A stretch of 64,000 nucleotides of DNA, from contig SVNC01000007.1 in NCBI GenBank assembly GCA_015067025.1, forward strand, positions 62,001 through 126,000, written 5' to 3'. A program made the translations under genes and the position numbers. Positions within the stretch are counted from its first letter, which is position 1; each line of letters begins with the position of its first letter. Source of the stretch: Oscillospiraceae bacterium (GTDB lineage Bacteria > Bacillota > Clostridia > Oscillospirales > Ruminococcaceae). This document shows, in pieces, positions 2,918 through 62,123 of the stretch. The notes beneath the pieces were generated by a model that was not told the origin of the DNA, made no database searches, and worked only from the letters and a program-made list of their open reading frames with translations.

Positions 2918-5900
2918 ATGCTTATGAACAATATACTGAAAAGAACGGTTTCATCTGTTCTTGCTTTCACGGTAGCTTTGTCTTCTGTACAGCTTTACGG
3001 TACTACAGCACACGCGGCTGTAGCGTCAGGCGTAAAGGGTGACGCAAACGCTGACGGTGTTGTAACTGAGGCAGATCTTGCTATTTATGAAAGCTATTTA
3101 CTTGGCAATACAGAAATTGCCGACGATATACTTGAGGACATGGATATAGATTATGGCGTTCTTTATTCCTATGTCGATGTAAACGGTAACGACTATGCGG
3201 CAGTCAGAAATTATCTTGAGGGCTGTACCCAGACTATTGAGCCGTCAGGACAAAATGATTACAAGAATGACGGCGGAATTCTCTATACTACGTTATATGC
3301 CGGCTATTATTCATCGAATGCAGTATTTATTGCTGAAACCGATGACCTTACAAATAGCGTTACAGAGCATGAAATAACAGAAATCATCTGGGGCGGCGGA
3401 AAGCCTGACTGGGCAACAGAGGTTGAAAGAGAAGAGGGACTTTATATCGACGGCACTCCTGACGAAACCGACGTAGGTACTTACAATATGCTCATTGTCG
3501 GAAAGAGCCTGAGCGGAAAATATCACGCAATAGCCAACTACTTTGATGTATGCTTACCCGATTATAAAGTCACTACAGAGGGTGGTAACGTATCTTATGA
3601 GAGTGGTGTCTGCGCTCTGTTTGGACCGGGCACCTATAATATAACAAGCACCACGACAGACGTATCCGATATGATAATGATCGCAGATATCGGTCAGCCC
3701 GGAAAGTGCGTTATCAATTTAAACGGTATGAATATAAATTGCGGAACTGCGAATATCCCCGGAGATTTCATTCAGGCTGTGTCTTTTGAATCCGGTATGC
3801 CCACTATGGATATTGATATAGTGCTTTCAGGCTCAAACGTTATCAAAAACGCTGATGTCGATTTATATACAGAAGGTCAGGTCGATATTTACGGCGATGA
3901 GGACGATATTCTTTCCTTACTTGGTAACTCAAGTATAAGTGCCCGAACAATTAAAGTAAACGGCGGAAAGGTAACCGTAAAAAGCAACTACTATCAGGCG
4001 ATGGAAACAGAACAGCTTACAATGATGGGCGGAAGCCTTGACTTAAGCTTTTCACCCGTAGAAGGTCAGCAATACGTTACCAGCAATACAACTCTTACCG
4101 GTGTGGGACTTATCTGCGATGAAGTAATCATTCGCAGAGGTAATCTTTCACTTAGCGGCAACAATGGTGCTCTTAAGGGTATAAATTCTACTCCGAAGTT
4201 TTACGTTTCCCCTCTTTATTGCGATATAGATATAGAAACAAGTGACGATGGTAACACCTATACCGCTATCGAAGGCTCACCCTTCAGCGATCCCGTGAAT
4301 TCTCCTTCTGCCTATACATATACAGATGCAGTAGAAGCAGGTGCTCCCGATAATTCAATTGATATATTCGATCATATTGCAGATAAAAATTTCGTTGAGA
4401 TAATACTGGGAGTTACCTACTCATATAAGGTTACTATCAATACGGACGATCACGGCAAAGTAACGTATGAAGATGATACTTCCGACCAGAAAACGCTCTG
4501 GGTTTCCGGCGGCGAAAAATTACCTGAGGGTATCACCTTAACCGCTGACGAAGGTTGGGAAATCGACAGCGTAACAGCATCAATAAACGGCGGTTCGGCT
4601 GTAAACGTGACAGATATTTCTGACGTTGTTATAGGCGGTGATACGGTTATAAACGTTACTACAAAGGATGTAAAAGCACCGGTTATAAACGGCATTACAG
4701 ATGGCTCAAATTACTGCGGAACTATAACCTTTACCGTAACGGACGATAGTGACGTAAGCGTTACGATAAATGGAGAAGTTGCCCAGCCTGATGCAAACGG
4801 CGTATATACAATTGTAGGCAATACCTCGGCTTACGGAATTAGAGCAACCGACGCCTTCGGCAACGAAACAGAATATACTATAATAGTCTACGAGTCGCAT
4901 CCTTCGGTATCAAACCATCAGGATAACGCAGACGGCACACATACAGGTGTTTGTGATTATTGCCATGAAGATGTAGTCGAAGAGCATAATTTCAGAGGCT
5001 GGGAATCTATCAGCTATACAACACACATAAACATCTGTGATGACTGTGGCTACATAAAAACTGAAAATCACACTATGGGCGACTGGGGATCGAATGACGG
5101 AGAAACTCACAGCAGAGTGTGCAGTATCTGTCACTATCTTGAAGAATCAGGCCATAACTTCGGTGAGTGGAGTGATTATTACAATACAGACACGCACGTA
5201 AGAGTATGTGAAGACTGTAGATATATAGATGAAGCAGAGCACAATTATCTTGATATGTGGGATTACGAAGATGCCGATATGCACAGTAAAATGTGCGTGA
5301 TATGCGGAAACAAAATTTATGCCGATCATAGTATGACAGAATGGATTGCAGATGATGGTCTCACACATTCAAGAATCTGTCAGGACCATTGCGGATATCG
5401 CGATGTATCGCACCACACCTTCAGCGAATGGACAGAAAACGCTGAAACAGGTAAGCATGAAAGAGAATGTGAAACCTGCGGACATATAGAAGAAGCAGAT
5501 CACGTTTACGGTGAGTGGGAAGATAACCACGAAACAGGTAAATGTGAAAGAATATGTGAAATCTGCGGTCACATAGATGAAGCAGATCACGCTTTCGGCG
5601 AATGGACAGAAAACGCTGAAACAGGCAAACATGAAAGAAAGTGTGAAATCTGCGGGCATACAGAAACCGGCGATCATAACTTCAACGACTGGATTCCGGA
5701 CCCGCAGACAGATTGCCACAAAAGGGACTGTGATGATTGCGGATTTATCGAAGAAGGCTCTCACTCCTTTGGTGAATGGGGAGAATATGACGAAGCCCAG
5801 CATATCAGAAGATGTGAAGATTGTGCTTTTTATTATATAACAAACCACACCTACGGCGAGTGGACAGATAATGCCGAAACGGGTAAGTGCGAAAGAGAAT

Positions 5901-6733
5901 GTACAGCCTGCGGTCATACAGAAGAAGCAGAACACGTTTTCGGTGATTGGACTGATTACGGTACAGAAATATGCGTAAAAGAATGTGAAAACTGCGGTCA
6001 TACAGAAAAAGCAGAACACGTTTTCAGTGATTGGACTGCTGATGATGGCGGAGAACAACACACAAGAGAGTGTACAGTCTGTGGCAGACAAGAAGCAGAA
6101 GATCACATCATGGGTGAGTTCACCGACAACCACGAAACCGGCAAGTGCGAAAGAGAATGTGAAGTATGCGGATATATAGAAGAAGCAGAACACGTTTTCG
6201 GTGAATGGACCGACAACCACGAAACCGGCAAGTGTGAAAGAGAATGTGAATTATGCGGACATACAGAAGAAGCAGAACATATTTTCGGTGAATGGGCAGA
6301 AATTGACGATGCTTCTCACGAGCAGGAATGCAAAAACTGCGGACATTGTGTTTCAGAAGAGCATAAATATGAAAATGCTGTAAACATTGGTAATGTACAG
6401 CACAAGCTCACCTGCTCCGTATGCGGTTCAGAAATGACTGAAGCCTGCCACGGCGTATGGGAAACTGTAAAGGAAGCAACCTGTACCGAAGAAGGTATAG
6501 AAGAAATGATTTGCGACGTTTGCGGTGAAAAGCATACAAGAAGTATAGAAATGCTTCCTCATGAATTTGTAAACGGCAGATGTTCATCCTGTTACCTCGT
6601 AGATCCTACGATAGGCGACAGCTCAACAAATCCTCCTACGGGTGTTACACTCGGAACAGGACTTGCGGCACTTATCCCTGCATCAGCACTGGTATTCTTT
6701 GCAAGACCCAAAACAAAGAAAAAGAGTAAATAA
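2918..6733 (+). CDS. Secreted dockerin-like surface protein with about 19 Cys/His-rich repeats and a sortase-type tail
   Basis: The 1271-residue protein starts with a signal peptide (cleavage expected after THAA, near residue 33). A dockerin-like segment follows: GDANADGVVTEADLAIY has the Asp/Asn calcium-loop pattern and a weaker second copy reads DVNGNDYAAVRNYLEG. Residues of about 200-480 look like a beta-rich domain, and 490-660 carry Ig-like or Bacterial-repeat-like segments. Residues 679-1225 hold about 19 CxxC units of 27-30 residues in the pattern C-x-x-C-G-H-x-E-E-A-x-H-x-F-G-E-W. The C-terminus has NPPTG, a hydrophobic stretch and a KKKSK tail, consistent with sortase anchoring. ATG 2924 is an alternative start. 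The role is unknown; adhesion or cell-surface assembly is an inference. Confidence 0.9.
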   Translation: MLMNNILKRTVSSVLAFTVALSSVQLYGTTAHAAVASGVKGDANADGVVTEADLAIYESYLLGNTEIADDILEDMDIDYGVLYSYVDVNGNDYAAVRNYLEGCTQTIEPSGQNDYKNDGGILYTTLYAGYYSSNAVFIAETDDLTNSVTEHEITEIIWGGGKPDWATEVEREEGLYIDGTPDETDVGTYNMLIVGKSLSGKYHAIANYFDVCLPDYKVTTEGGNVSYESGVCALFGPGTYNITSTTTDVSDMIMIADIGQPGKCVINLNGMNINCGTANIPGDFIQAVSFESGMPTMDIDIVLSGSNVIKNADVDLYTEGQVDIYGDEDDILSLLGNSSISARTIKVNGGKVTVKSNYYQAMETEQLTMMGGSLDLSFSPVEGQQYVTSNTTLTGVGLICDEVIIRRGNLSLSGNNGALKGINSTPKFYVSPLYCDIDIETSDDGNTYTAIEGSPFSDPVNSPSAYTYTDAVEAGAPDNSIDIFDHIADKNFVEIILGVTYSYKVTINTDDHGKVTYEDDTSDQKTLWVSGGEKLPEGITLTADEGWEIDSVTASINGGSAVNVTDISDVVIGGDTVINVTTKDVKAPVINGITDGSNYCGTITFTVTDDSDVSVTINGEVAQPDANGVYTIVGNTSAYGIRATDAFGNETEYTIIVYESHPSVSNHQDNADGTHTGVCDYCHEDVVEEHNFRGWESISYTTHINICDDCGYIKTENHTMGDWGSNDGETHSRVCSICHYLEESGHNFGEWSDYYNTDTHVRVCEDCRYIDEAEHNYLDMWDYEDADMHSKMCVICGNKIYADHSMTEWIADDGLTHSRICQDHCGYRDVSHHTFSEWTENAETGKHERECETCGHIEEADHVYGEWEDNHETGKCERICEICGHIDEADHAFGEWTENAETGKHERKCEICGHTETGDHNFNDWIPDPQTDCHKRDCDDCGFIEEGSHSFGEWGEYDEAQHIRRCEDCAFYYITNHTYGEWTDNAETGKCERECTACGHTEEAEHVFGDWTDYGTEICVKECENCGHTEKAEHVFSDWTADDGGEQHTRECTVCGRQEAEDHIMGEFTDNHETGKCERECEVCGYIEEAEHVFGEWTDNHETGKCERECELCGHTEEAEHIFGEWAEIDDASHEQECKNCGHCVSEEHKYENAVNIGNVQHKLTCSVCGSEMTEACHGVWETVKEATCTEEGIEEMICDVCGEKHTRSIEMLPHEFVNGRCSSCYLVDPTIGDSSTNPPTGVTLGTGLAALIPASALVFFARPKTKKKSK
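4952..6592 (+). repeat. In-gene tandem repeat array encoding CxxC/His units (about 85-bp period)
   Basis: Roughly 19 units encode a CxxC pair, then a His, then a Trp. Several units are close to identical at DNA level, notably around 5390-5660 and 6120-6290, where GAAGAAGCAGAACACGTTTT-like strings recur. This argues for recent unit duplication or homogenisation. The outer units, at 4952-5400 and after 6290, are more diverged. Confidence 0.9.
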
Positions 6734-35542: not shown

Positions 35543-36352
35543 ATGATTTTATACTATGATTTTCCCATTATCCGCTCAGAGGGAGAGTTGCCTTTATATC
35601 TTGTAGAAATGGGCGTGAATATAAGAGAAGAGCATTTTGTAAGAAAAGATGGGTATAAGCAACCCCAGATAATATATTGCACTAAGGGCAGCGGTACACT
35701 TATCCTTGACGAAAAGACTTATATAATAAAACCCTCTATGGGATTTTTTCTCCCTGCAAATTACCCTCATGAATACTATCCGAATGAAGAGGTGTGGGAT
35801 ACCCACTGGGTGATACCGGGAGGAAGCGGTGCAGAACAGATTATGACCCATTTCGGTTTTTCGAAAGCTCGGGTGTTTGAAATGTCGGAAATAAAGACAA
35901 TTGAACATATTTTCCGCAAAATGCACGAGGCAATAAGAGATGACAGCATTTTCGGAAATTATCGTGCCGCAGGCTTTCTTTACGATTTTCTTATAGAGCT
36001 TTACAGAGTTACATCCACGGCGGCAACGGGCAAAGCCACAAACTCAGCAGTAATACGAGCAGTAGATTATATAAACGCAAATTACACAAATCAGGTCACG
36101 ATGGAGCGGTTATGTAAGCAGGCGGGTGTATCAGAGCAGCACCTGTGCAGGCTGTTTCGCTCTGCTCTTGGCTCACGCCCAATGGAATACGTGGCAAAAC
36201 GCAGAATACAGACCGCAAAGGAGTTGCTCACCTCTTCAGATTTTTCTGTTGATGAAATAGCGGAAAAGGTCGGCTTTTGCTCAGGCAGTTATTTTTGCAA
36301 GCTGTTTAAAAGATATGAAGGGATGACGCCGACAGAGTTCAGAAGGGGATGA
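35543..36352 (+). CDS. AraC-family transcriptional regulator with cupin domain
   Basis: ATG 35543 is chosen because AAGGAG lies eight bases upstream; earlier in-frame codons have no usable site. The 269-residue protein has an N-terminal cupin-like sensor (residues 10-130, with QIIYCTKGSGTLIL and the PANYPHEYYP strand) and a C-terminal double helix-turn-helix (NYTNQVTMERLCKQAGVSEQ and IAEKVGFCSGSYFCKLFKR). This is the RhaS/MelR-like layout that senses a sugar. Divergence from lacZ suggests it controls that gene, probably in response to a galactoside. The ligand is inferred only from context. Confidence 0.92.
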   Translation: MILYYDFPIIRSEGELPLYLVEMGVNIREEHFVRKDGYKQPQIIYCTKGSGTLILDEKTYIIKPSMGFFLPANYPHEYYPNEEVWDTHWVIPGGSGAEQIMTHFGFSKARVFEMSEIKTIEHIFRKMHEAIRDDSIFGNYRAAGFLYDFLIELYRVTSTAATGKATNSAVIRAVDYINANYTNQVTMERLCKQAGVSEQHLCRLFRSALGSRPMEYVAKRRIQTAKELLTSSDFSVDEIAEKVGFCSGSYFCKLFKRYEGMTPTEFRRG

Positions 36353-36396: not shown

Positions 36397-38553
36397 TCAG
36401 CGCGTGTAAAAACCTGCGAAATCAACCTTATCATTATTCTTTTCTCTGTCTGCTTCTATTTCCTTTATCAGTTTTTCCGCCTTTTCGGCGTTTTCTGCTG
36501 TGATAAACATTAACACACCGGAGTCATTAAATTCAATCATATAGCTAACATTCTTTTCTTTGTCCGGCTCGTGAACCTCAAAAAGATCGGTAAGTGCTTT
36601 CACCTTTTCGTTATCCAGATCTTTATTTCTGATGTGGAAGCGTAAATAACGGAGGTGTTCTTCTTCTCCGATATAACTCATAGCTATGAAAATAGCGTCA
36701 GGTCGTTCAGACTCTTCGCGGGTATTGTAAAACTGATTAGCTTGATAGGAGTGATAATTTTCTTTGTTTTTAAGAACAGCGATCATGTTTTCACAGTTTT
36801 CTGTAATAGCTATTTCAAACATACCTACACCACCGTCATCGTTGTTCCAGTATGAATTAGCATAGCCTATTGTCTTTCCTGTGGTAAAACTGCCGTTTTC
36901 AATGTCCAGCTTTATAGCTTCTGCCAGTTTCTTGACGCCGTTTTCGGAAAGCTCCTTTGTAAGAAATCCCTCTTTTAGCATAAAGGTGCCTGAGAGCTGA
37001 TCACTGTGTTCATTGAGAAGTATCTGATTTACGGTTGCAGGCAATGACAATAGTACTTTTTTGATTTCTGAGCCTACATTTGTATTAATGTTCGGGTTAT
37101 AGATGTAGCGCCTTGTTATTTCACTACCGTCCTTCATATTGTAAGTTATCTGGAACCAATATCCTGTTTCCGCCTTATTGTCAACACACATTTTATGAAG
37201 CTCTGATATTTTCTTAATATCGTTTTCATCTGTATAAATAAGAGTGTTTATGTCGTTGCGAAAGCCGGTATAGCCTTCACATACCTCTATTGATTCCACT
37301 TGCTTTGTGTCAGGAATATATCTCCCATATCCAAAGCCTTCTGATAATCCGATAAGGGTAAAGCCGCCGAAGGCTATAGCCGAGGTCAGTACAAGATGTA
37401 AAAGGTGCATTGGTATTTTCTTTATGCTCTTGTAGTGGAAAAGCTGTAAAGCCATATAAACAGCAAAAAGTATAAGGATAGTAACTGCAAGTCCCGACTG
37501 GTTTTTTCTGAAGGATACCACCAGCATACCTACAAAGCATACCACAAGAAGAGTCATTATCACCTTGTATATAAATTCTATTGCAAAGGGCTTGCCGGTG
37601 TTTTCTGCCTTTCTCTTTTTCGTGCATATATAAGCGGCAAAAAGCAGCAAAAAGCATATTATTATTGCGGAAATAATAACGGTTACGGGGAAAGCGAGAA
37701 CCTCAGGTACCATTTCAGATGTTACTGTACGTGCCTTTGTGAATCTGCCCATACCTGCTAAAAGCGTGCCGAAAACGGGCATGTGTGCAGGAATATTTTC
37801 AAGCTCGGGCCAGCTTGTTATTCCCCGTGTGGTATTTAAAATAAGTGTAACGAGATTATTGATAGTGAGTAAAGCTACAAGGGGAGTAGCTATGGAATAA
37901 ATGACACTTTCTGCTCTTCTTCCCGTACAGCAGGTGAAGAAAAGGGATGTGAAATATACCGCCGTTACTGTGATTATTCCTGTAGTTGCCGCAAGGAAGA
38001 ACATATCGTAGGCGTTGCATACACATAAGCGGGTAAGGTCTGTAACGCCCAGAGAATCGAATAATTCGAAATGCTCTGATAATACTCCTGCTGCCTTTTG
38101 TATGAATATAAAGCCGCCGAGGAAATTGATTGCAAGCGGCAATACGGCTATAAAAAAGCCTGCAAGAGCATCGGCTAAAAATCTGCCCTTTGTGGATATC
38201 GGAAGACTTAAATACATATCCGAATCGGAGCGCTTATTGTTGTAGCTCATCACAAGTGTAGGTGCGGCAATGCTGATGATAGTCAGCACGGCAAATACGA
38301 AAATGCAGATTACAAATGCGCTTTCCGCACTACCTGCAAGATTTGCAAGTGCTTCTTTGCTTTCAAAGGAAAGTGGAGCTTCTTCGGTGATATTTGCCAG
38401 AATATTATATATTCCCTCTACCGAGGATGACGTAATAATAGCCATCAGAGGCAGAGCCAGTATATTCGCTACAAGAGAAACTATTAAAAGCACCTTATGT
38501 TTTAATAGCTTATAAAAGAAATAACGGGAGAAATATGTATCAGTTAATTTCAT
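36397..38553 (-). CDS. ABC-2 type exporter membrane protein (718 aa)
   Basis: The protein has an N-terminal ABC-2-like membrane domain (helices at about residues 18-40, 75-100, 140-165, 185-210, 225-250 and 285-310, for example LIVSLVANILALPLMAIIT), further helices to about 415, and a C-terminal soluble domain of about 300 residues (FRNDINTLIYTDENDIKKI onward) that probably lies outside. It overlaps the start of the ATPase gene by 14 bases, so the two are coupled. The layout is that of GntR-controlled exporters of Firmicutes that move antibiotics, lipids or signal peptides. Confidence 0.82.
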   Translation of the reverse strand: MKLTDTYFSRYFFYKLLKHKVLLIVSLVANILALPLMAIITSSSVEGIYNILANITEEAPLSFESKEALANLAGSAESAFVICIFVFAVLTIISIAAPTLVMSYNNKRSDSDMYLSLPISTKGRFLADALAGFFIAVLPLAINFLGGFIFIQKAAGVLSEHFELFDSLGVTDLTRLCVCNAYDMFFLAATTGIITVTAVYFTSLFFTCCTGRRAESVIYSIATPLVALLTINNLVTLILNTTRGITSWPELENIPAHMPVFGTLLAGMGRFTKARTVTSEMVPEVLAFPVTVIISAIIICFLLLFAAYICTKKRKAENTGKPFAIEFIYKVIMTLLVVCFVGMLVVSFRKNQSGLAVTILILFAVYMALQLFHYKSIKKIPMHLLHLVLTSAIAFGGFTLIGLSEGFGYGRYIPDTKQVESIEVCEGYTGFRNDINTLIYTDENDIKKISELHKMCVDNKAETGYWFQITYNMKDGSEITRRYIYNPNINTNVGSEIKKVLLSLPATVNQILLNEHSDQLSGTFMLKEGFLTKELSENGVKKLAEAIKLDIENGSFTTGKTIGYANSYWNNDDGGVGMFEIAITENCENMIAVLKNKENYHSYQANQFYNTREESERPDAIFIAMSYIGEEEHLRYLRFHIRNKDLDNEKVKALTDLFEVHEPDKEKNVSYMIEFNDSGVLMFITAENAEKAEKLIKEIEADREKNNDKVDFAGFYTR

Positions 38554-48930: not shown

Positions 48931-48965
48931 ATAACATCCGACCGAAAGGTCGGATGTTATTTTTT
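48931..48965. terminator. Terminator between GH5 and giant anti-sigma gene
   Basis: ATAACATCCGACC (48931-48943) pairs perfectly with 48948-48960 across a GAAA tetraloop. Five T follow the forward stem. Confidence 0.9.
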
Positions 48966-51900
48966 ATACATACATATCTTTTTCTATTCTGAATTTAAAT
49001 TCGGAATTACCATCGCTGTCAATATAATATACAGGATGATCTACTATATAACCGCCATTGTCACCATCATACACGATCCCTATAGCGTAATAACCCGAAG
49101 GAATGTACGAATCCCATCCATCAGGGACAACAAACTCTCCCTTTTCGTTTATCGAAAATCCACCTATACAATTATAATCATGGAAACTATCCGTATATCC
49201 GTCAACGTCAAGTCCGTTCTGATGTAAATATACTTCAAGCTCGTTCAAAAGATAGATACGCACGTCTTTAACAGTTTTATTTTTTTCGAATCCGTCAATT
49301 TTCAGTTTTATATCTGTCATTTTAAGGTCATTGCCAACTGACGGTATTACCCCTGAGCCTGCATACACCACGTTGCCCTCAGTCTTAAGCGACTTTTTAA
49401 TATAAAGTACGGGGATATAGTACTTATTCTGATTTTTGGGTTTCACCTTTCTTATAAGGAAATTATCAAAAACCTCATCCTTTCTGTAAAGGACTCCGTT
49501 ATAATATATCTCGCTGTATTCGCTGAACAACTGACGTTTTGCTCTGTGTATCTCTTCGTCGTATTTATCTCCGGATATTTTAACAGGCACTGTACCTCCG
49601 CCGTTTTTAAGATTATCCCACTTGACGTCAACGGATATCGCACAGTATTTTTCACCCATAAAGCTTATATCCTGCGTACAATATTCGTTCTCTTCTTCTA
49701 TCCACGGAGAACCTGAATCGGGTGCGTTAGTGCCAACCCTGTCCGAGCCGATATCTGCTTTATTAAGAGTGACATTTATTGTTTTATAGCTGTCCTTATT
49801 AGTTACCTCGAATACTGTAAAGCCGTTATCATTTGTCGGCAGGAACATAGGACCTGTGACTATGTAATATCCCACATCGGCTTTATCAATAACTACCTTT
49901 CCGTCAGCCGATACCGAATAGCTGGGTACAACGCTTAAATCCTTATCGGTATAGGTGAGCTTGTCGGTGCTGTCAAGAAAAGCCTTGTCGGTTTTTATAA
50001 GATAGAGCAGTCCTCTGTTTGTATAGGAGCTGTCACCCGTAAACTGTATAGTAAGATTTTCTGCAACAGCATCGTTATCACCTGGGAGATTAAGCGACCA
50101 CACGCTTTCAAGATTGCTTTCAAATACTCTGAAAACTACTCCGTGAGGATCAGCAGAAACTATATTGCCCTGCTCGTCAAATATGTTATAGGTAAGACAG
50201 GGCAGTTCGTCAAAGTGTGCCTTGCCGTTACTGTCGGTGGTGAAGTGGATGATTTCTTTTTCCTTATCGGTAAGAGTATATTCCTGAAGATAGAAATTTT
50301 TGTTGCCGTAGCTTACGTTTCCTTTAAAGGTGATATTTATATTTCTTACCTTTGCGGGAATTACAGAGGCTGTTCTCTTTTCAAAATCAAAGGCTACAGT
50401 CCATTCCTTGCCGTCTGTAACGGCGTTGTCCTTTATTATGATATTGTTATCAAGTACAGGGCTGTAAAGGTTGATATCATCATACCCTGTAAACTGATAA
50501 GGCATACCGGGTACACCGCTATCGGTTATGGAATAAAAGGCAGGAATAGTATAATCTCTGTCCATAGGATAAAGTTTTGTTATCCTATTGTAATTATCAA
50601 TCCCATTACCCTTTACCGCAAGTATAACAAGCGGATATTCCTTGCCGTTTTGCGTCATCGTTTTAACGGATAACATATTATCAGTAAATTTCTTTGCATC
50701 CTGTACGAGTATCTTAACGCTTCCGTCTTTTGCACCTGTATAAAACTCTCCGAAGTCCTTCATAAGCTCTTTACCCTTATACACGTAAACTCTGGGTCTT
50801 GCGGTGTAGTAATCGGTGGTTGTACGGGTAAGCTCGCCTGCTGCAATAAAGCGGTATTCTCCGTAGGTGACTTCTGCAAAGCGTACTCTTTCGCTTACAC
50901 CTGTATTATATTTATCCTCGCCGAAAAGCTTTGAATCCTCATAAGGCGGGAAGGACAATACGTCTCTGCTTTTATCTTCCTTAGATATACCCTTTACAGT
51001 CATCTCAGTTTTGCTGTTATCAAAGGTAATAGTTATACTTTCCGACTTATCGTCAATTATATTTTTACCGTTTTCGTCTGTAATTATATAAGTGTCACAG
51101 GGAAGAACATCAAAACGAGCCTTGCCATTACTGTCGGTAGTGAAAGTTGTGGCATTGTCGCCTGATGGGTATTTACCGATTATCAGCTTCTTATTTTTAT
51201 ACTCATCACCCTCTATACTGATACCTACATTAAACGCTTTATTTGCAGTAATGTAGGCGGTCCTGATTTCAGGATTGAAGAATACCTCCCAGCCCTTTTC
51301 ATCCACCATTACAGTCATTCCGGAATTGTTTTCAGATTCACGGAAGGTTACGTTCTTTGTATAATCGGGATAGAGCATACTGCCGCTGAACAGAATAAGC
51401 TGCGGACCTGTTTCAACTAAATTCTGTGAATATCTTACAGAAAAGAAATTTGATACAGTGGTAAAACCGGCAGATGGGAAATCATCCTCTAAAATACTGC
51501 TGTGCGGTTTTGCAGTAACCACCGCTAAAGGAAAGGGCGTTCCGAAATACTGAAATTCCTTTACATCAAGTACAGCATCGCCAAAGCTTTCGATATCATC
51601 GGCACTTACGGTAAAGTCAAAGCCTCCGTTGGATAAAGCATTCTGCATATCTATCAGCTTGTTGTGTTCATACAGATACATATTAAGGGATACCGTATAA
51701 TCCCCCTCTTCCGTGCGTTCCATTTTTCCGCCTACAACAAAGTCATATTTATTATAACTCTTTTCGGCAAAGCGGACTATATCAAAGTCGCCCTTCACAG
51801 TTTCATAAGGCTCAGTGTAAATGTGAGAATCCGTGTATAACGGACGCTTTTTTATATCTACGTCAGCTTCATTATTTAACTCCGTTACGGTACCCTTTAT

Positions 51901-53406
51901 ATTTTCAAAATCAAAGGTTATCTTTTTTCGGTTTACACTATCCTTTAAGGATAAGCCCACCTGCTCTACGTCTGATGGGAGGTTTTTGTAATTTATTACA
52001 CCGTAAATCGATTCACCTCTGCCATATCTTACTGTATAGAAGGAAGTTATTGAATCTGCGTCAAGGCTTTCCTTGGTTTTTTCGTCCGGAATATTATAGG
52101 TTACAGACGCCAAGGGATAATCTATGCCGTTTTGCTTCATCATATAGCATTTCAGCATATCCTTATAATTATAATCCTTAGGTACTGATATTCCGTATTG
52201 CTGGCCAAAGTTGACAGGAGCAATAAAAACGCTGTTCAATGCTCTTTTGTTTTTGCTTACAATAATGCCAAAGCCTCCGAAGTAATTATCAACGTTATCA
52301 GAACGCTTTACAAATTTTCCTGTCAGAGTAAAGGTATAATCGCCAATGGTTTTTTCATCAACAACAACCTTAGCATACGGGACATTTGAAATATCTCCGA
52401 GAAAGCCGTCATAAACGGGGATATTACTGTCTTCAAAGGGAAGAAGATTATCTAAATGCTCCTGCTTTTCATCGTCATAGAATACTGCATCTACGTAGGC
52501 AGTTTTATTTTCAAAATCAAACTGAGTTACCCAGCCGTTTTTATCAGTATAAACGTTCTTGCTGAAGCTTTCCATTTCAAAATCGGGATAGCATAAGTTA
52601 AAGTTACCGTTCAAGGTAAATCTGAACGCCTGATCATCCTTTACAGAGAAGAATATTGTGCCGTATTCATAATCTTCACTATTAAACAAGTCTGCCAGTA
52701 CCCGTTTATTTACCTTGTGTGTAAGCATAATAAGCGGATAGATTTTATCGTCCTGCCATACACTATAGACTTTAATCAGTTTGTTCTGGAACTGTTCCAT
52801 ATCCTCTTTCGTTACATCAAATCCAGACTGACCGCCTATATCAAAGCCACCTGGGACGCCTATAAGCTCTTTGCCCTTGTATATATACAGGTTGAACCTC
52901 GCTTCATATCTGTCCTCTTCACGACGGATAAAATCGCCTGCTACTATGTAACGATAGTCATTGGCATTTGATATAACCTCAGCAAAGCGGACCTGTTCCA
53001 TTCCCTCACTGCCGTACTTCTGCGGCTCCATATCCATAACTGCGCTGTCCTTATAAAAGGGCAGACTGAGGGCGTCTATCATTTCAGGCTTTGGATTTTT
53101 ATTGTTTGTAGAACCGGATTCTGTTTCAGGAATACTTGGAATATTGCTCTCGAACACGTTATTCTGCGGAGTAGAAACGTCGATCTGCTGTCCGGGTGTT
53201 GCAAAATGGATAATAAGCATAGTTATACCTGTAAGCAGCACTATGCTTGCCGCGATGGCGGCATATCTCATAAAGCCCGTTTTATTTTCTGCCTTTTCCT
53301 CCGCCTGTTCTGTTGCGGTATTTGTAACAGACATATTTATACGGTCAAACAAGGCGTCCTTTTTTTCCTGCGAAAGTGAGTATTTATCAAAAGTCTTTTT
53401 AATCAT
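48964..53406 (-). CDS. Giant single-pass membrane protein, probable ECF anti-sigma/sensor (1480 aa)
   Basis: ATG 53406 is chosen because it overlaps the sigma stop codon in ATGATTAA and has GGGG eight bases upstream; a longer frame reaches further into the sigma gene. The cytoplasmic N-terminus is about 47 residues (FDKYSLSQEKKDALFDRI), followed by one membrane helix (residues 48-68). The rest is outside: four copies of a 200-300 residue unit recognised by VRFAE..Y.F..GG and YPLxxVT strings, interspersed with Cna-B-like folds (FTTDSNGKARFDVLPCDTYII and a near copy FTTDSNGKAHFDELPCLTYNI). The overlap with the sigma gene and topology support an anti-sigma role; ligand unknown. Confidence 0.75.
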   Translation of the reverse strand: MIKKTFDKYSLSQEKKDALFDRINMSVTNTATEQAEEKAENKTGFMRYAAIAASIVLLTGITMLIIHFATPGQQIDVSTPQNNVFESNIPSIPETESGSTNNKNPKPEMIDALSLPFYKDSAVMDMEPQKYGSEGMEQVRFAEVISNANDYRYIVAGDFIRREEDRYEARFNLYIYKGKELIGVPGGFDIGGQSGFDVTKEDMEQFQNKLIKVYSVWQDDKIYPLIMLTHKVNKRVLADLFNSEDYEYGTIFFSVKDDQAFRFTLNGNFNLCYPDFEMESFSKNVYTDKNGWVTQFDFENKTAYVDAVFYDDEKQEHLDNLLPFEDSNIPVYDGFLGDISNVPYAKVVVDEKTIGDYTFTLTGKFVKRSDNVDNYFGGFGIIVSKNKRALNSVFIAPVNFGQQYGISVPKDYNYKDMLKCYMMKQNGIDYPLASVTYNIPDEKTKESLDADSITSFYTVRYGRGESIYGVINYKNLPSDVEQVGLSLKDSVNRKKITFDFENIKGTVTELNNEADVDIKKRPLYTDSHIYTEPYETVKGDFDIVRFAEKSYNKYDFVVGGKMERTEEGDYTVSLNMYLYEHNKLIDMQNALSNGGFDFTVSADDIESFGDAVLDVKEFQYFGTPFPLAVVTAKPHSSILEDDFPSAGFTTVSNFFSVRYSQNLVETGPQLILFSGSMLYPDYTKNVTFRESENNSGMTVMVDEKGWEVFFNPEIRTAYITANKAFNVGISIEGDEYKNKKLIIGKYPSGDNATTFTTDSNGKARFDVLPCDTYIITDENGKNIIDDKSESITITFDNSKTEMTVKGISKEDKSRDVLSFPPYEDSKLFGEDKYNTGVSERVRFAEVTYGEYRFIAAGELTRTTTDYYTARPRVYVYKGKELMKDFGEFYTGAKDGSVKILVQDAKKFTDNMLSVKTMTQNGKEYPLVILAVKGNGIDNYNRITKLYPMDRDYTIPAFYSITDSGVPGMPYQFTGYDDINLYSPVLDNNIIIKDNAVTDGKEWTVAFDFEKRTASVIPAKVRNINITFKGNVSYGNKNFYLQEYTLTDKEKEIIHFTTDSNGKAHFDELPCLTYNIFDEQGNIVSADPHGVVFRVFESNLESVWSLNLPGDNDAVAENLTIQFTGDSSYTNRGLLYLIKTDKAFLDSTDKLTYTDKDLSVVPSYSVSADGKVVIDKADVGYYIVTGPMFLPTNDNGFTVFEVTNKDSYKTINVTLNKADIGSDRVGTNAPDSGSPWIEEENEYCTQDISFMGEKYCAISVDVKWDNLKNGGGTVPVKISGDKYDEEIHRAKRQLFSEYSEIYYNGVLYRKDEVFDNFLIRKVKPKNQNKYYIPVLYIKKSLKTEGNVVYAGSGVIPSVGNDLKMTDIKLKIDGFEKNKTVKDVRIYLLNELEVYLHQNGLDVDGYTDSFHDYNCIGGFSINEKGEFVVPDGWDSYIPSGYYAIGIVYDGDNGGYIVDHPVYYIDSDGNSEFKFRIEKDMYV

Positions 53407-53896
53407 TTTCATTACCCCTTTCTGTATCGTCACCAAGAATGTCACGAAGCATCGCTCTTGCCTTCTGCAGATGATTTCTCACAGCAGAATCACTCTGCTT
53501 TAAGATCCCGCCTATCTCTTTACTGTTATAGCCGTGATAATAAAACAGATAAGTGGGTACTTTCAGCTTATCGGGAAGCTTTGATAAAGCGTCCAGCACC
53601 TCGCTGTACTCGTCATATACTCCGCTGTCCTTTACTTCTTCAAGATCAGCATTGTAGCGTGTCCAGTGTCTTAACATATTTTTGGATACGTTTACTGCCA
53701 CCTTTATAAGCCAGTTTTTCTCGTGGAGCTCGTTTTCAAAATTTCTTTCTTTCTCCATCAGCTTTACAAAGGTGTTATGTACAGCGTCTTCGGCATCTGC
53801 TTCATTTTTCAGATACATCAGACAGATATGGTAGATAGTATCAACGTTACGCTGATACACTTCTTTTAAATAATCGGTGTGATTTTTAGGTACCAT
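53399..53896 (-). CDS. ECF-type RNA polymerase sigma factor (second module)
   Basis: ATG 53896 (MVPKNHTDYLKEVYQ) is chosen because GGGAGGG lies upstream; the longer frame adds 27 residues that do not resemble protein. The 165-residue product has region 2 (YLKNEADAEDAVHNTFVKLM) and region 4 (GYNSKEIGGILKQSDSAVRN). It overlaps the giant membrane protein gene by eight bases. Upstream, the reverse strand has a TATATA-type -10 but no good sigma-A -35; a repeated GGGGTA (53944-53969) may be a regulatory site or an unusual promoter. Confidence 0.9.
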   Translation of the reverse strand: MVPKNHTDYLKEVYQRNVDTIYHICLMYLKNEADAEDAVHNTFVKLMEKERNFENELHEKNWLIKVAVNVSKNMLRHWTRYNADLEEVKDSGVYDEYSEVLDALSKLPDKLKVPTYLFYYHGYNSKEIGGILKQSDSAVRNHLQKARAMLRDILGDDTERGNEND

Positions 53897-53970
53897 TAAA
53901 ATCCCTCCCGTTTTTGTCTTTCTATATATATTACAATTGAGCAGGGGTATCTGTCCTGTTTTGGGGTAAT

Positions 53971-61326: not shown

Positions 61327-62123
61327 AAAGCCACTTCCTCCAGTTTAAGATGTTTTTCTATATCGCTGTCTGTTATTGTCGAGAGATCATCAAAAAGCTC
61401 CGCTTCAAAGCTTGCCTGACCCTTTGATGTGCAAAGCTCTGCTGATATCCCAAGCATTGCAAGGGCAGCAACTGCCGCATATACGGAATTTTCCACCGCT
61501 AAAAAGCAACCGCAAAGCACACCTGAAATACATCCCGTACCGGTTATTCTGCTCAGCATTGCCGTTCCGTTATTGATACGGAAAAGCTTTTTTCCATCAG
61601 TTACGATATCTGTTTTTCCGCTGGCAAGGATTATCGCATTATATCTTTTCGATAACTTCTTAGCCGCTTTTTCAATATCAGTCATATCAAGCCTTTCAGA
61701 ATCCACCCCGACTGCATTATAATCACTGTCATATAAAGCAAGTATCTCAGAATAATTCCCCTTTATAACGGTAGGCGGGGCTTTTTTTAAAAGCTTTGCC
61801 GTATATTTTCTTCTGAGTAAGGAGCAGGCAACTCCTACCGCATCATATACAAAGGGGATATTATTACTGTGGCAGAACACTGCCGTTTTCATTATAGACT
61901 TTTTTCTGACATCGGTTATATTTCCGATATTAAGCACCACTGCACCGGCAGTTTTTGCAATTTCGCATACCTCGGTGGGGTGCTCTGCCATCATCGGCTT
62001 TGCACCCACCGCTAAAACAGCATTTGCACATTTGTTTATGGAAATGGGGTTTGTTATCGAATGGATAAGAGGTGCTTTTTCTTTAAGTTTTTCTCTCAGC
62101 GTATTTATTTTCGCTGTCTGCAT
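61323..62123 (-). CDS. thiM: Hydroxyethylthiazole kinase
   Basis: The 266-residue enzyme phosphorylates thiazole. It has PLIHSITNPISINKCANAVL, GAKPMMAEHPTE and the catalytic RITGTGCISGVLCGCF. It overlaps the transporter gene by 41 bases and has its own AAAGGAG site inside it. Confidence 0.95.
   Translation of the reverse strand: MQTAKINTLREKLKEKAPLIHSITNPISINKCANAVLAVGAKPMMAEHPTEVCEIAKTAGAVVLNIGNITDVRKKSIMKTAVFCHSNNIPFVYDAVGVACSLLRRKYTAKLLKKAPPTVIKGNYSEILALYDSDYNAVGVDSERLDMTDIEKAAKKLSKRYNAIILASGKTDIVTDGKKLFRINNGTAMLSRITGTGCISGVLCGCFLAVENSVYAAVAALAMLGISAELCTSKGQASFEAELFDDLSTITDSDIEKHLKLEEVAL

Follow-up and report, generated by a model that had tools for sequence, protein, structure and literature searches.

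Anti-sigma factors partnered with extracytoplasmic function (ECF) sigma factors rank among the main means of environmental sensing in bacteria, and few of their ligands are known. The sigma24C of Clostridium thermocellum is a sigma factor of the ECF type. Here we analyse an ECF sigma factor gene and the overlapping gene of a 1480-residue membrane protein in a 64,000-nucleotide stretch of DNA (hereafter the window; positions 62,001 to 126,000 of contig SVNC01000007.1, assembly GCA_015067025.1) from the 2.4-Mb, 29-contig genome of a gut-type Oscillospiraceae bacterium, and compare this pair with the described systems that it resembles, as far as the accessible parts of the cited reports describe them. 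Like the window pair, sigma24C–Rsi24C of the fibre-degrading C. thermocellum joins a sigma factor to a membrane anti-sigma factor with a large sensory ectodomain, whose GH5-like module interacts with crystalline cellulose (PMC3526467, PMC3990059). By comparison, the window ectodomain is composed of an unnamed repeated domain and SpaA-like spacers and has no GH5 match, GH5 being encoded by a separate neighbouring gene. The SigI/RsgI system resembles the pairs studied here in its paralogous pairs within one genome, intracellular N-terminal domain, swapped sensors and autoregulation (PMC12203970, PMC6056542). SigI is described as lacking region 4 (PMC6056542), whereas the window sigma factor has this region; RsgI contains an autocleavage domain in the periplasm (PMC12203970), whereas the window protein has a short motif as a putative cut site, and Pfam and NCBIfam scans of the window pair returned no RsgI family. 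In the third system, sigmaV/RsiV, also an ECF pair, the RsiV ectodomain acts as a lysozyme-binding inhibitor, and RsiV is subsequently cleaved by signal peptidase and RasP (PMC5014341, PMC9044953), which makes it a model for a receptor derived from an inhibitor-like domain; the window ectodomain differs in being repeated and distinct, with no DUF4163 or DUF3298 match in Pfam at E 1. Our literature search, which mostly went without subscription papers and is thus weak evidence, turned up neither a description of this array nor one of an anti-sigma factor of the solute-binding-protein kind. The elements that we did not find described are a repeat array as an ECF sensor, the change in unit number together with segment replacement, and the link between the unit and peptidase genes.

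Our analysis suggests that the window pair is probably an autoregulated ECF sigma factor and membrane anti-sigma factor with a modular surface-receptor ectodomain, released by regulated proteolysis. The features that bear on the switch are as follows.

53399..53896, minus strand: ECF sigma factor gene, 165 amino acids, regions 2 and 4 (Pfam Sigma70_r2 3.4e-11, Sigma70_r4_2 3.8e-8)
48964..53406, minus strand: anti-sigma candidate gene, 1480 amino acids, overlapping the sigma gene by 8 nt
53926..53957, minus strand: predicted autoregulatory promoter with a GGACA-N15-TTGTA core (19.2 bits with a leave-out matrix; zero-mismatch site)
53266..53406, minus strand: cytosolic anti-sigma segment, residues 1-47 (leave-out profile match; two helices predicted)
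53203..53265, minus strand: transmembrane helix, residues 48-68 (hydropathy; helix 42-68 in the model)
53179..53193, minus strand: juxtamembrane motif GQQID, residues 72-76 (core pattern G-x-[PGQ]-[IV]-[DSNT])

The sigma factor scores 71 bits with the sigma70-ECF model TIGR02937 (cut-off 42.9). The eight bases common to the two genes are ATGATTAA; a Shine-Dalgarno-like AGGGG lies ahead of the overlapping ATG of the large-protein gene, and a further ATG is found six bases upstream of that ATG. A preliminary description of this DNA had reported the sigma gene, its overlap of eight bases and a single-pass membrane protein of 1480 residues, and all three were confirmed, the protein showing one transmembrane peak at residues ~46-71 by hydropathy. 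The two genes are presumably co-transcribed, with the N-terminus of the large protein predicted to be cytosolic. PADLOC gave no match for the large protein; its three marginal matches for the sigma factor (E 0.0075-0.0087) were disregarded.

The pair belongs to a family that extends through the genus; the preliminary description mentions neither its sister pairs nor their common promoter, the units altered between species or the single-unit relatives next to a peptidase. A relative of the sigma factor at E 1e-15 occurs in 38 of the 40 genus genomes searched, and the window's own genome encodes four close paralogs with 47-53% identity, behind each of which lies the gene of a single-pass protein with an ectodomain of its own. 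Among 47 sigma/anti-sigma pairs that were read, the 13 scoring above 215 bits form a core set with a common N-terminus and differing ectodomains, five of them in the own genome; the other 34 are treated as non-core and include two mis-picked open reading frames (ORFs) of 7 amino acids. Genomes are labelled G (G000 being the window's own genome), loci L and contigs of the own genome C; the pairs of G461 and G465, found later, are not among the 13. Consistent with an anti-sigma function, the 47-residue cytosolic segment matches a sister N-terminus profile, made from the 11 core proteins that remain once the window protein and the ortholog L140 are set aside, at 19.0 bits, as compared with a maximum of 9.6 bits in 1000 shuffles. 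The N-terminal segment may therefore, on this homology, be the part that binds and inhibits the sigma factor.

The preliminary description had further proposed a coupled anti-sigma candidate with a repeat ectodomain, at whose N-terminus an anti-sigma-like helix bundle would be expected. The coupling is upheld by this profile match and by the overlap kept in four orthologs; the helix bundle was not borne out, since AlphaFold2, with an alignment of 19 N-termini, predicts helices at 5-8 and 13-40 and a membrane helix at 42-68 (mean pLDDT 69), which is not a class I bundle. Class I anti-sigma domains comprise 50 residues or more, with a mean of 101, and one study set those below 50 residues aside as possible class II, a class in which the domain of CnrY is short and two-helical (PMC7406223, accessible parts). 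The window segment has 47 residues ahead of the membrane helix and two predicted helices, and thus, as a putative class II domain, is in its modelled form closer to the short domains of that class than to the ~100-residue class I fold. Immediately beyond the membrane helix, 12 of the 13 core proteins carry the pattern G-x-[PGQ]-[IV]-[DSNT], starting at residues 65-72.

These observations bear on whether the large protein could be a surface adhesin or stalk that merely follows the sigma gene and does not bind the sigma factor. Its repeats with SpaA-like spacers do resemble surface stalk proteins, and the Pfam scan of the large protein lists no anti-sigma family at E 1; against this stand the homology of its N-terminus to other sigma-coupled proteins, the conservation of the 8-nt overlap in four species (the window's, G063, G465 and G461) and the lack of an LPxTG sorting motif, the N-terminal helix being its only membrane anchor. 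We thus regard an adhesin as highly improbable, and an anti-sigma role of the large protein as likely.

The sigma genes of the core set are preceded by a promoter type reading GGACA-N15-TTGTAwTrTA or close variants. In a leave-out scan it was found before 12 of the 13 core sigma genes, at 13.4-24.8 bits, as compared with at most 10.3 bits in the controls for the 13 rows (26 scans, reverse-strand and downstream); the core loci other than L021b, L141 and L145, ten in all, served to train the matrix. Eleven of these sites start 41-62 nt before the nominal start and one starts at 251 nt. The zero-mismatch pattern has 12 sites in six genomes, versus 2 for the reversed pattern, and seven of the 12 precede core sigma genes. 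From its sequence, the pair would be autoregulated from its GGACA-N15-TTGTA promoter.

Other perfect sites point to possible targets of the wider family. In the own genome, one ends ~43 nt ahead of the gene of an unknown lipoprotein, which is followed by a small membrane-protein gene (L188:3698-5091, C2); the site is closest to the promoter of the C28 sister sigma gene, so that, judged by this likeness, a sister sigma factor is likely to act on the lipoprotein gene, and for the window pair autoregulation alone is claimed. In G014 a zero-mismatch site lies before a secreted serpin gene (L195). G031 has an identical site (L204) at a contig end, before any readable gene, and two more before lipoprotein genes, one of them SurA_N-like below the cut-off. 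With one mismatch allowed, the own genome has 9 sites versus 7 for the reversed control, and therefore the only one-mismatch site kept is that before the C15 sigma gene. A one-mismatch site on C11 before an aquaporin-like gene was set aside, since its sequence, TTGACA...TATAAT, could be that of an ordinary promoter.

Outside the membrane, the large protein comprises four copies of a ~180-residue domain (the unit) and two SpaA/Cna-B-like segments, followed by two further regions, as listed here from the N-terminal side.

52486..53016, minus strand: unit 1, residues 131-307 (219 bits with profile A3, which includes unit 1; 29.8 bits with the outside profile)
51883..52383, minus strand: unit 2, residues 342-508 (A3, 187.9 bits; outside profile, 57.9 bits)
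51244..51798, minus strand: unit 3, residues 537-721 (A3, 170.7 bits; outside profile, 4.2 bits, weak; aligned to units 1 and 4 by BLAST)
50965..51222, minus strand: SpaA/Cna-B-like segment S1, residues ~729-814 (best Pfam SpaA stretch 751-804, protein E 1.6e-5)
50359..50907, minus strand: unit 4, residues 834-1016 (A3, 191.9 bits; outside profile, 45.8 bits)
50071..50298, minus strand: SpaA/Cna-B-like segment S2, residues ~1037-1112 (42% identity to S1 over 72 residues)
49633..50070, minus strand: domain X, residues ~1113-1258 (BLAST to L002, L142 and L144, E 4e-15 to 1e-17, and to the ortholog L140)
48967..49632, minus strand: C-terminal tip, residues ~1259-1480 (the part most divergent from the G063 ortholog, 43% identity, as compared with 87% for unit 1)

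Four single-unit stretches from other genomes went into the outside profile, which matches the large protein at 131-304, 345-505, 544-604 and 830-1014, the third stretch weakly; its total of 126.6 bits compares with 6.2 bits for the best of 500 composition shuffles, although the profile is not wholly independent, because its source proteins were found by searching with the large protein. The unit bounds listed above were set by a profile of ten rows, the window units among them, giving cores of 167-185 residues with distances of 211, 195 and 297 between starts. Self-comparison, proposed in the preliminary description, gave the diagonal alone in an unmasked BLAST; with the query stretch masked, units 1 and 4 align (38.7%, E 3e-21), as do 1/3 and 3/4, among the matches listed, and unit 2 was detected by profile. 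The earlier count of about four repeats therefore stands, and the array may, as that description suggested, form a stalk through the wall. Its Cna-B-like segments are recovered as SpaA PF17802, the only Pfam family above cut-off in the large protein (25.4 bits, cut-off 23.1; two stretches at a lax E of 1), with S1 between units 3 and 4 and S2 after unit 4; the assignment is borderline because the G465 ortholog is below the cut-off, at 22.3 bits, and the G063 ortholog is not listed at E 0.01.

Structure prediction of the units had likewise been proposed beforehand. The AlphaFold2 model from the four window units is mostly beta with two short helices, by which the units are probably beta-rich; the pLDDT is 56, and Foldseek of the unit model against the PDB returned nothing at E 0.001 or below. 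The sole match of profile A3 among PDB sequences, the weak one to Kbp (E 0.0069), is not believed, and the whole large protein and domain X reach a best E of 0.18 against PDB sequences. The large protein is unusually big for an ECF anti-sigma factor, as the preliminary description had stated, although many proteins of the core set have a large ectodomain. Among wider sigma relatives (66 of 80 loci, L095-L108 being left out), the ORF downstream of the sigma gene has a median of 344 amino acids, counting three mis-picked ORFs of 20-32 amino acids, and a maximum of 703, whereas the median length of the protein paired with the sigma factor is 753 in the 13 core pairs versus 362 in the 34 other genus pairs. 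The longest ortholog, outside the 13 core pairs, has 1534 amino acids.

The sister pairs of the own genome carry other ectodomains on the same switch. Pfam at E 0.01 found no family in nine of the ten core proteins scanned besides the window's (L139 and L141 were left out). The C15 sister anti-sigma protein (L003:1501-3105) has a solute-binding-protein-like ectodomain (SBP_bac_8, 6.1e-7), and its ortholog in G063 (L139:1060-2724) is 51% identical. Sister anti-sigma proteins with different architectures, that of C28 among them, have domain X in common with the window protein. C23 holds two sister pairs, one with an anti-sigma protein of three 109-residue repeats (L021:8534-10957); a second repeat-built orthologous pair is thereby available, with three repeats in L021b versus two in L141 (L141:3816-5888). 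A 414-residue protein encoded on C13 (L190:146-1390), with one apparent membrane segment and no Pfam match, looks like a further anti-sigma factor.

Our comparison of orthologs, which is between species and not within one, reveals that the array changes while its surroundings are kept. As compared with the window protein (1480 amino acids, four units), the orthologs have 1186 amino acids and three units in G063, 1116 and four in G465, and 1534 and seven in G461, and a homologous GH5 gene lies convergently downstream in all three, as in the window; ffh is found upstream of the G461 pair. Most units were sorted by pairwise identity into classes A, B, C and D. The order is A-B-C-S-D-S-X-tip in the window, A-B-C-S-X-tip in G063 and A-B-C-S-D-S in G465, and G461 has seven units without S, the last three being A-B-C. 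Between G063 and G465, the sigma factors are 96%, the N-termini 98% and the S1 segments 95% identical, as compared with 48% for unit 1 and 61% for unit 2. Identity at fourfold-degenerate sites follows the same course, with 91% for the N-terminus and S1, 80% for unit 3, 54% for unit 1 and 60% for unit 2 (Fisher P 6e-6). Because synonymous sites of units 1 and 2 diverge too, this looks, from the sequences, like segment replacement and not only selection on the protein. The contrast between the window and G063 is weaker, with fourfold identities of 57-68% and 35% for the tip. The ectodomain thus has the look of a rapidly evolving detector mounted on a switch that is conserved.

Such variation would also be expected of a decoy or escape protein, whose units vary under attack by phage, predators, antibodies or proteases of the host or competitors while the anti-sigma end reports damage. 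The replaced segments and altered unit numbers, next to an N-terminus that is conserved, would fit, as would the comparable change from three to two repeats in the second orthologous pair; however, repeat arrays readily change in number without selection for escape, and we consider a decoy unlikely.

For the receptor that we favour, a cutting scheme is proposed by analogy with RsiV and the RsgI/Rsi24C sensors. The short cytosolic helices would hold the sigma factor at the membrane, while the ectodomain, with its four units, two SpaA-like spacers and variable tip, would meet an outside ligand. Ligand contact may expose or strain the juxtamembrane motif, leading to a first cut there or nearby, upon which an M50 site-2 protease could cleave within the membrane and free the sigma factor; M50 protease genes are present in the own genome. 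The freed sigma factor would then transcribe its own operon from the GGACA-N15-TTGTA promoter, yielding more receptor, and the ectodomain would diversify as its units are gained, lost and replaced, with the switch staying constant.

The distribution of the unit gives an indication of its ligand. In a sample of 391 genomes of the class the unit profile matches two, both of the window's genus, and within the genus it matches 9 of 71 genomes; single-unit anti-sigma-like proteins occur in G025 and G009, and G476 has a weak match (27.5 bits) in a large protein encoded next to a different sigma gene. In addition, the search yielded five single-unit lipoproteins, in the own genome, G461, G019 (two) and G034, and four of their genes (own genome, G461 and both in G019) come after that of a secreted C39-like peptidase. 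The four peptidases retain Cys, His and Asp, with Pfam scores slightly under the cut-off. A search for the peptidase itself gave seven copies in 6 of 71 genomes, and the lipoprotein after the G032 copy scores 30.3 bits with the unit profile (shuffles at most 8.5), that after the G027 copy being marginal (11.4 bits versus 7.2). The stretches around the five single-unit lipoproteins contain no promoter site of at least 14 bits.

Because single-unit lipoprotein genes adjoin peptidase genes, a peptidase is proposed as partner of the unit domain; the serpin gene behind the promoter in one relative is a further reason to favour this step. The ligand is most likely a protein, and a secreted peptidase is a possible, if tentative, first candidate. 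A bolder version, which we think improbable, is an immune-receptor-like family with a constant signalling end and interchangeable ectodomains, in which peptidase-partner units that bind, or are cut by, extracellular proteases are gained, lost and swapped to change specificity. The two-gene arrangement of C39-like peptidase and single-unit lipoprotein (L243:581-2310 on own C2, L244, L007, L010 and L249) is an observation in its own right.

The ligand could instead be a carbohydrate, as with Rsi24C and RsgI, the units binding plant polysaccharide and the sigma factor turning on glycosidases such as the neighbouring GH5. The convergent neighbour of the pair is indeed a GH5 cellulase gene (Pfam 1.5e-47), with homologs at the same place in the three orthologous loci; the window elsewhere contains a dockerin-like match and GH2 genes, and the C15 sister has its SBP_bac_8 ectodomain. 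However, the GH5 gene, being convergent, is outside the operon of the pair and lacks this promoter type (the best other window site, near 35750, has 13.6 bits), and no carbohydrate-binding family was found by Pfam in the large protein at E 1. A carbohydrate sensor therefore appears rather doubtful.

Several findings weigh against the protein-sensing, autoregulated receptor. The juxtamembrane pattern has two matches in 8774 residues beyond residue 100 of the core proteins, a background count that flatters the motif because the pattern was derived from the same 13 proteins. In the core pair L141 the promoter type and the juxtamembrane motif are both missing. Five of the 34 non-core pairs score at least 13.0 bits, one of them 24.0 (controls up to 11.3), so that the promoter type is not confined to the core. 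No second target of the window sigma factor was found in the own genome, the other perfect site most resembling the promoter of the C28 sister, and the AlphaFold2 model of the units is poor. As for the peptidase step, the unit lipoprotein of G034 has no peptidase neighbour, the G060 peptidase has no detectable unit neighbour (2.5 bits versus 7.8 for shuffles), and the serpin was dropped as a general target, as the own genome and G063 have none and those of G025 and G026 are not preceded by a site.

In this family one genome fits the same switch with several unrelated ectodomains, an array changes between species, and the promoter is readable; these natural receptor swaps and the ready reporter make the ligand, the site of the first cut and the overlap among sister promoters directly testable. 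Two other parts of the window were also recorded. Positions 2918-6733 encode a 1271-residue protein whose dockerin-like match is slightly under the Pfam cut-off. Positions 36397-38553 hold a 718-residue ORF with no Pfam match at E 0.001, which overlaps a 300-residue ORF upstream.

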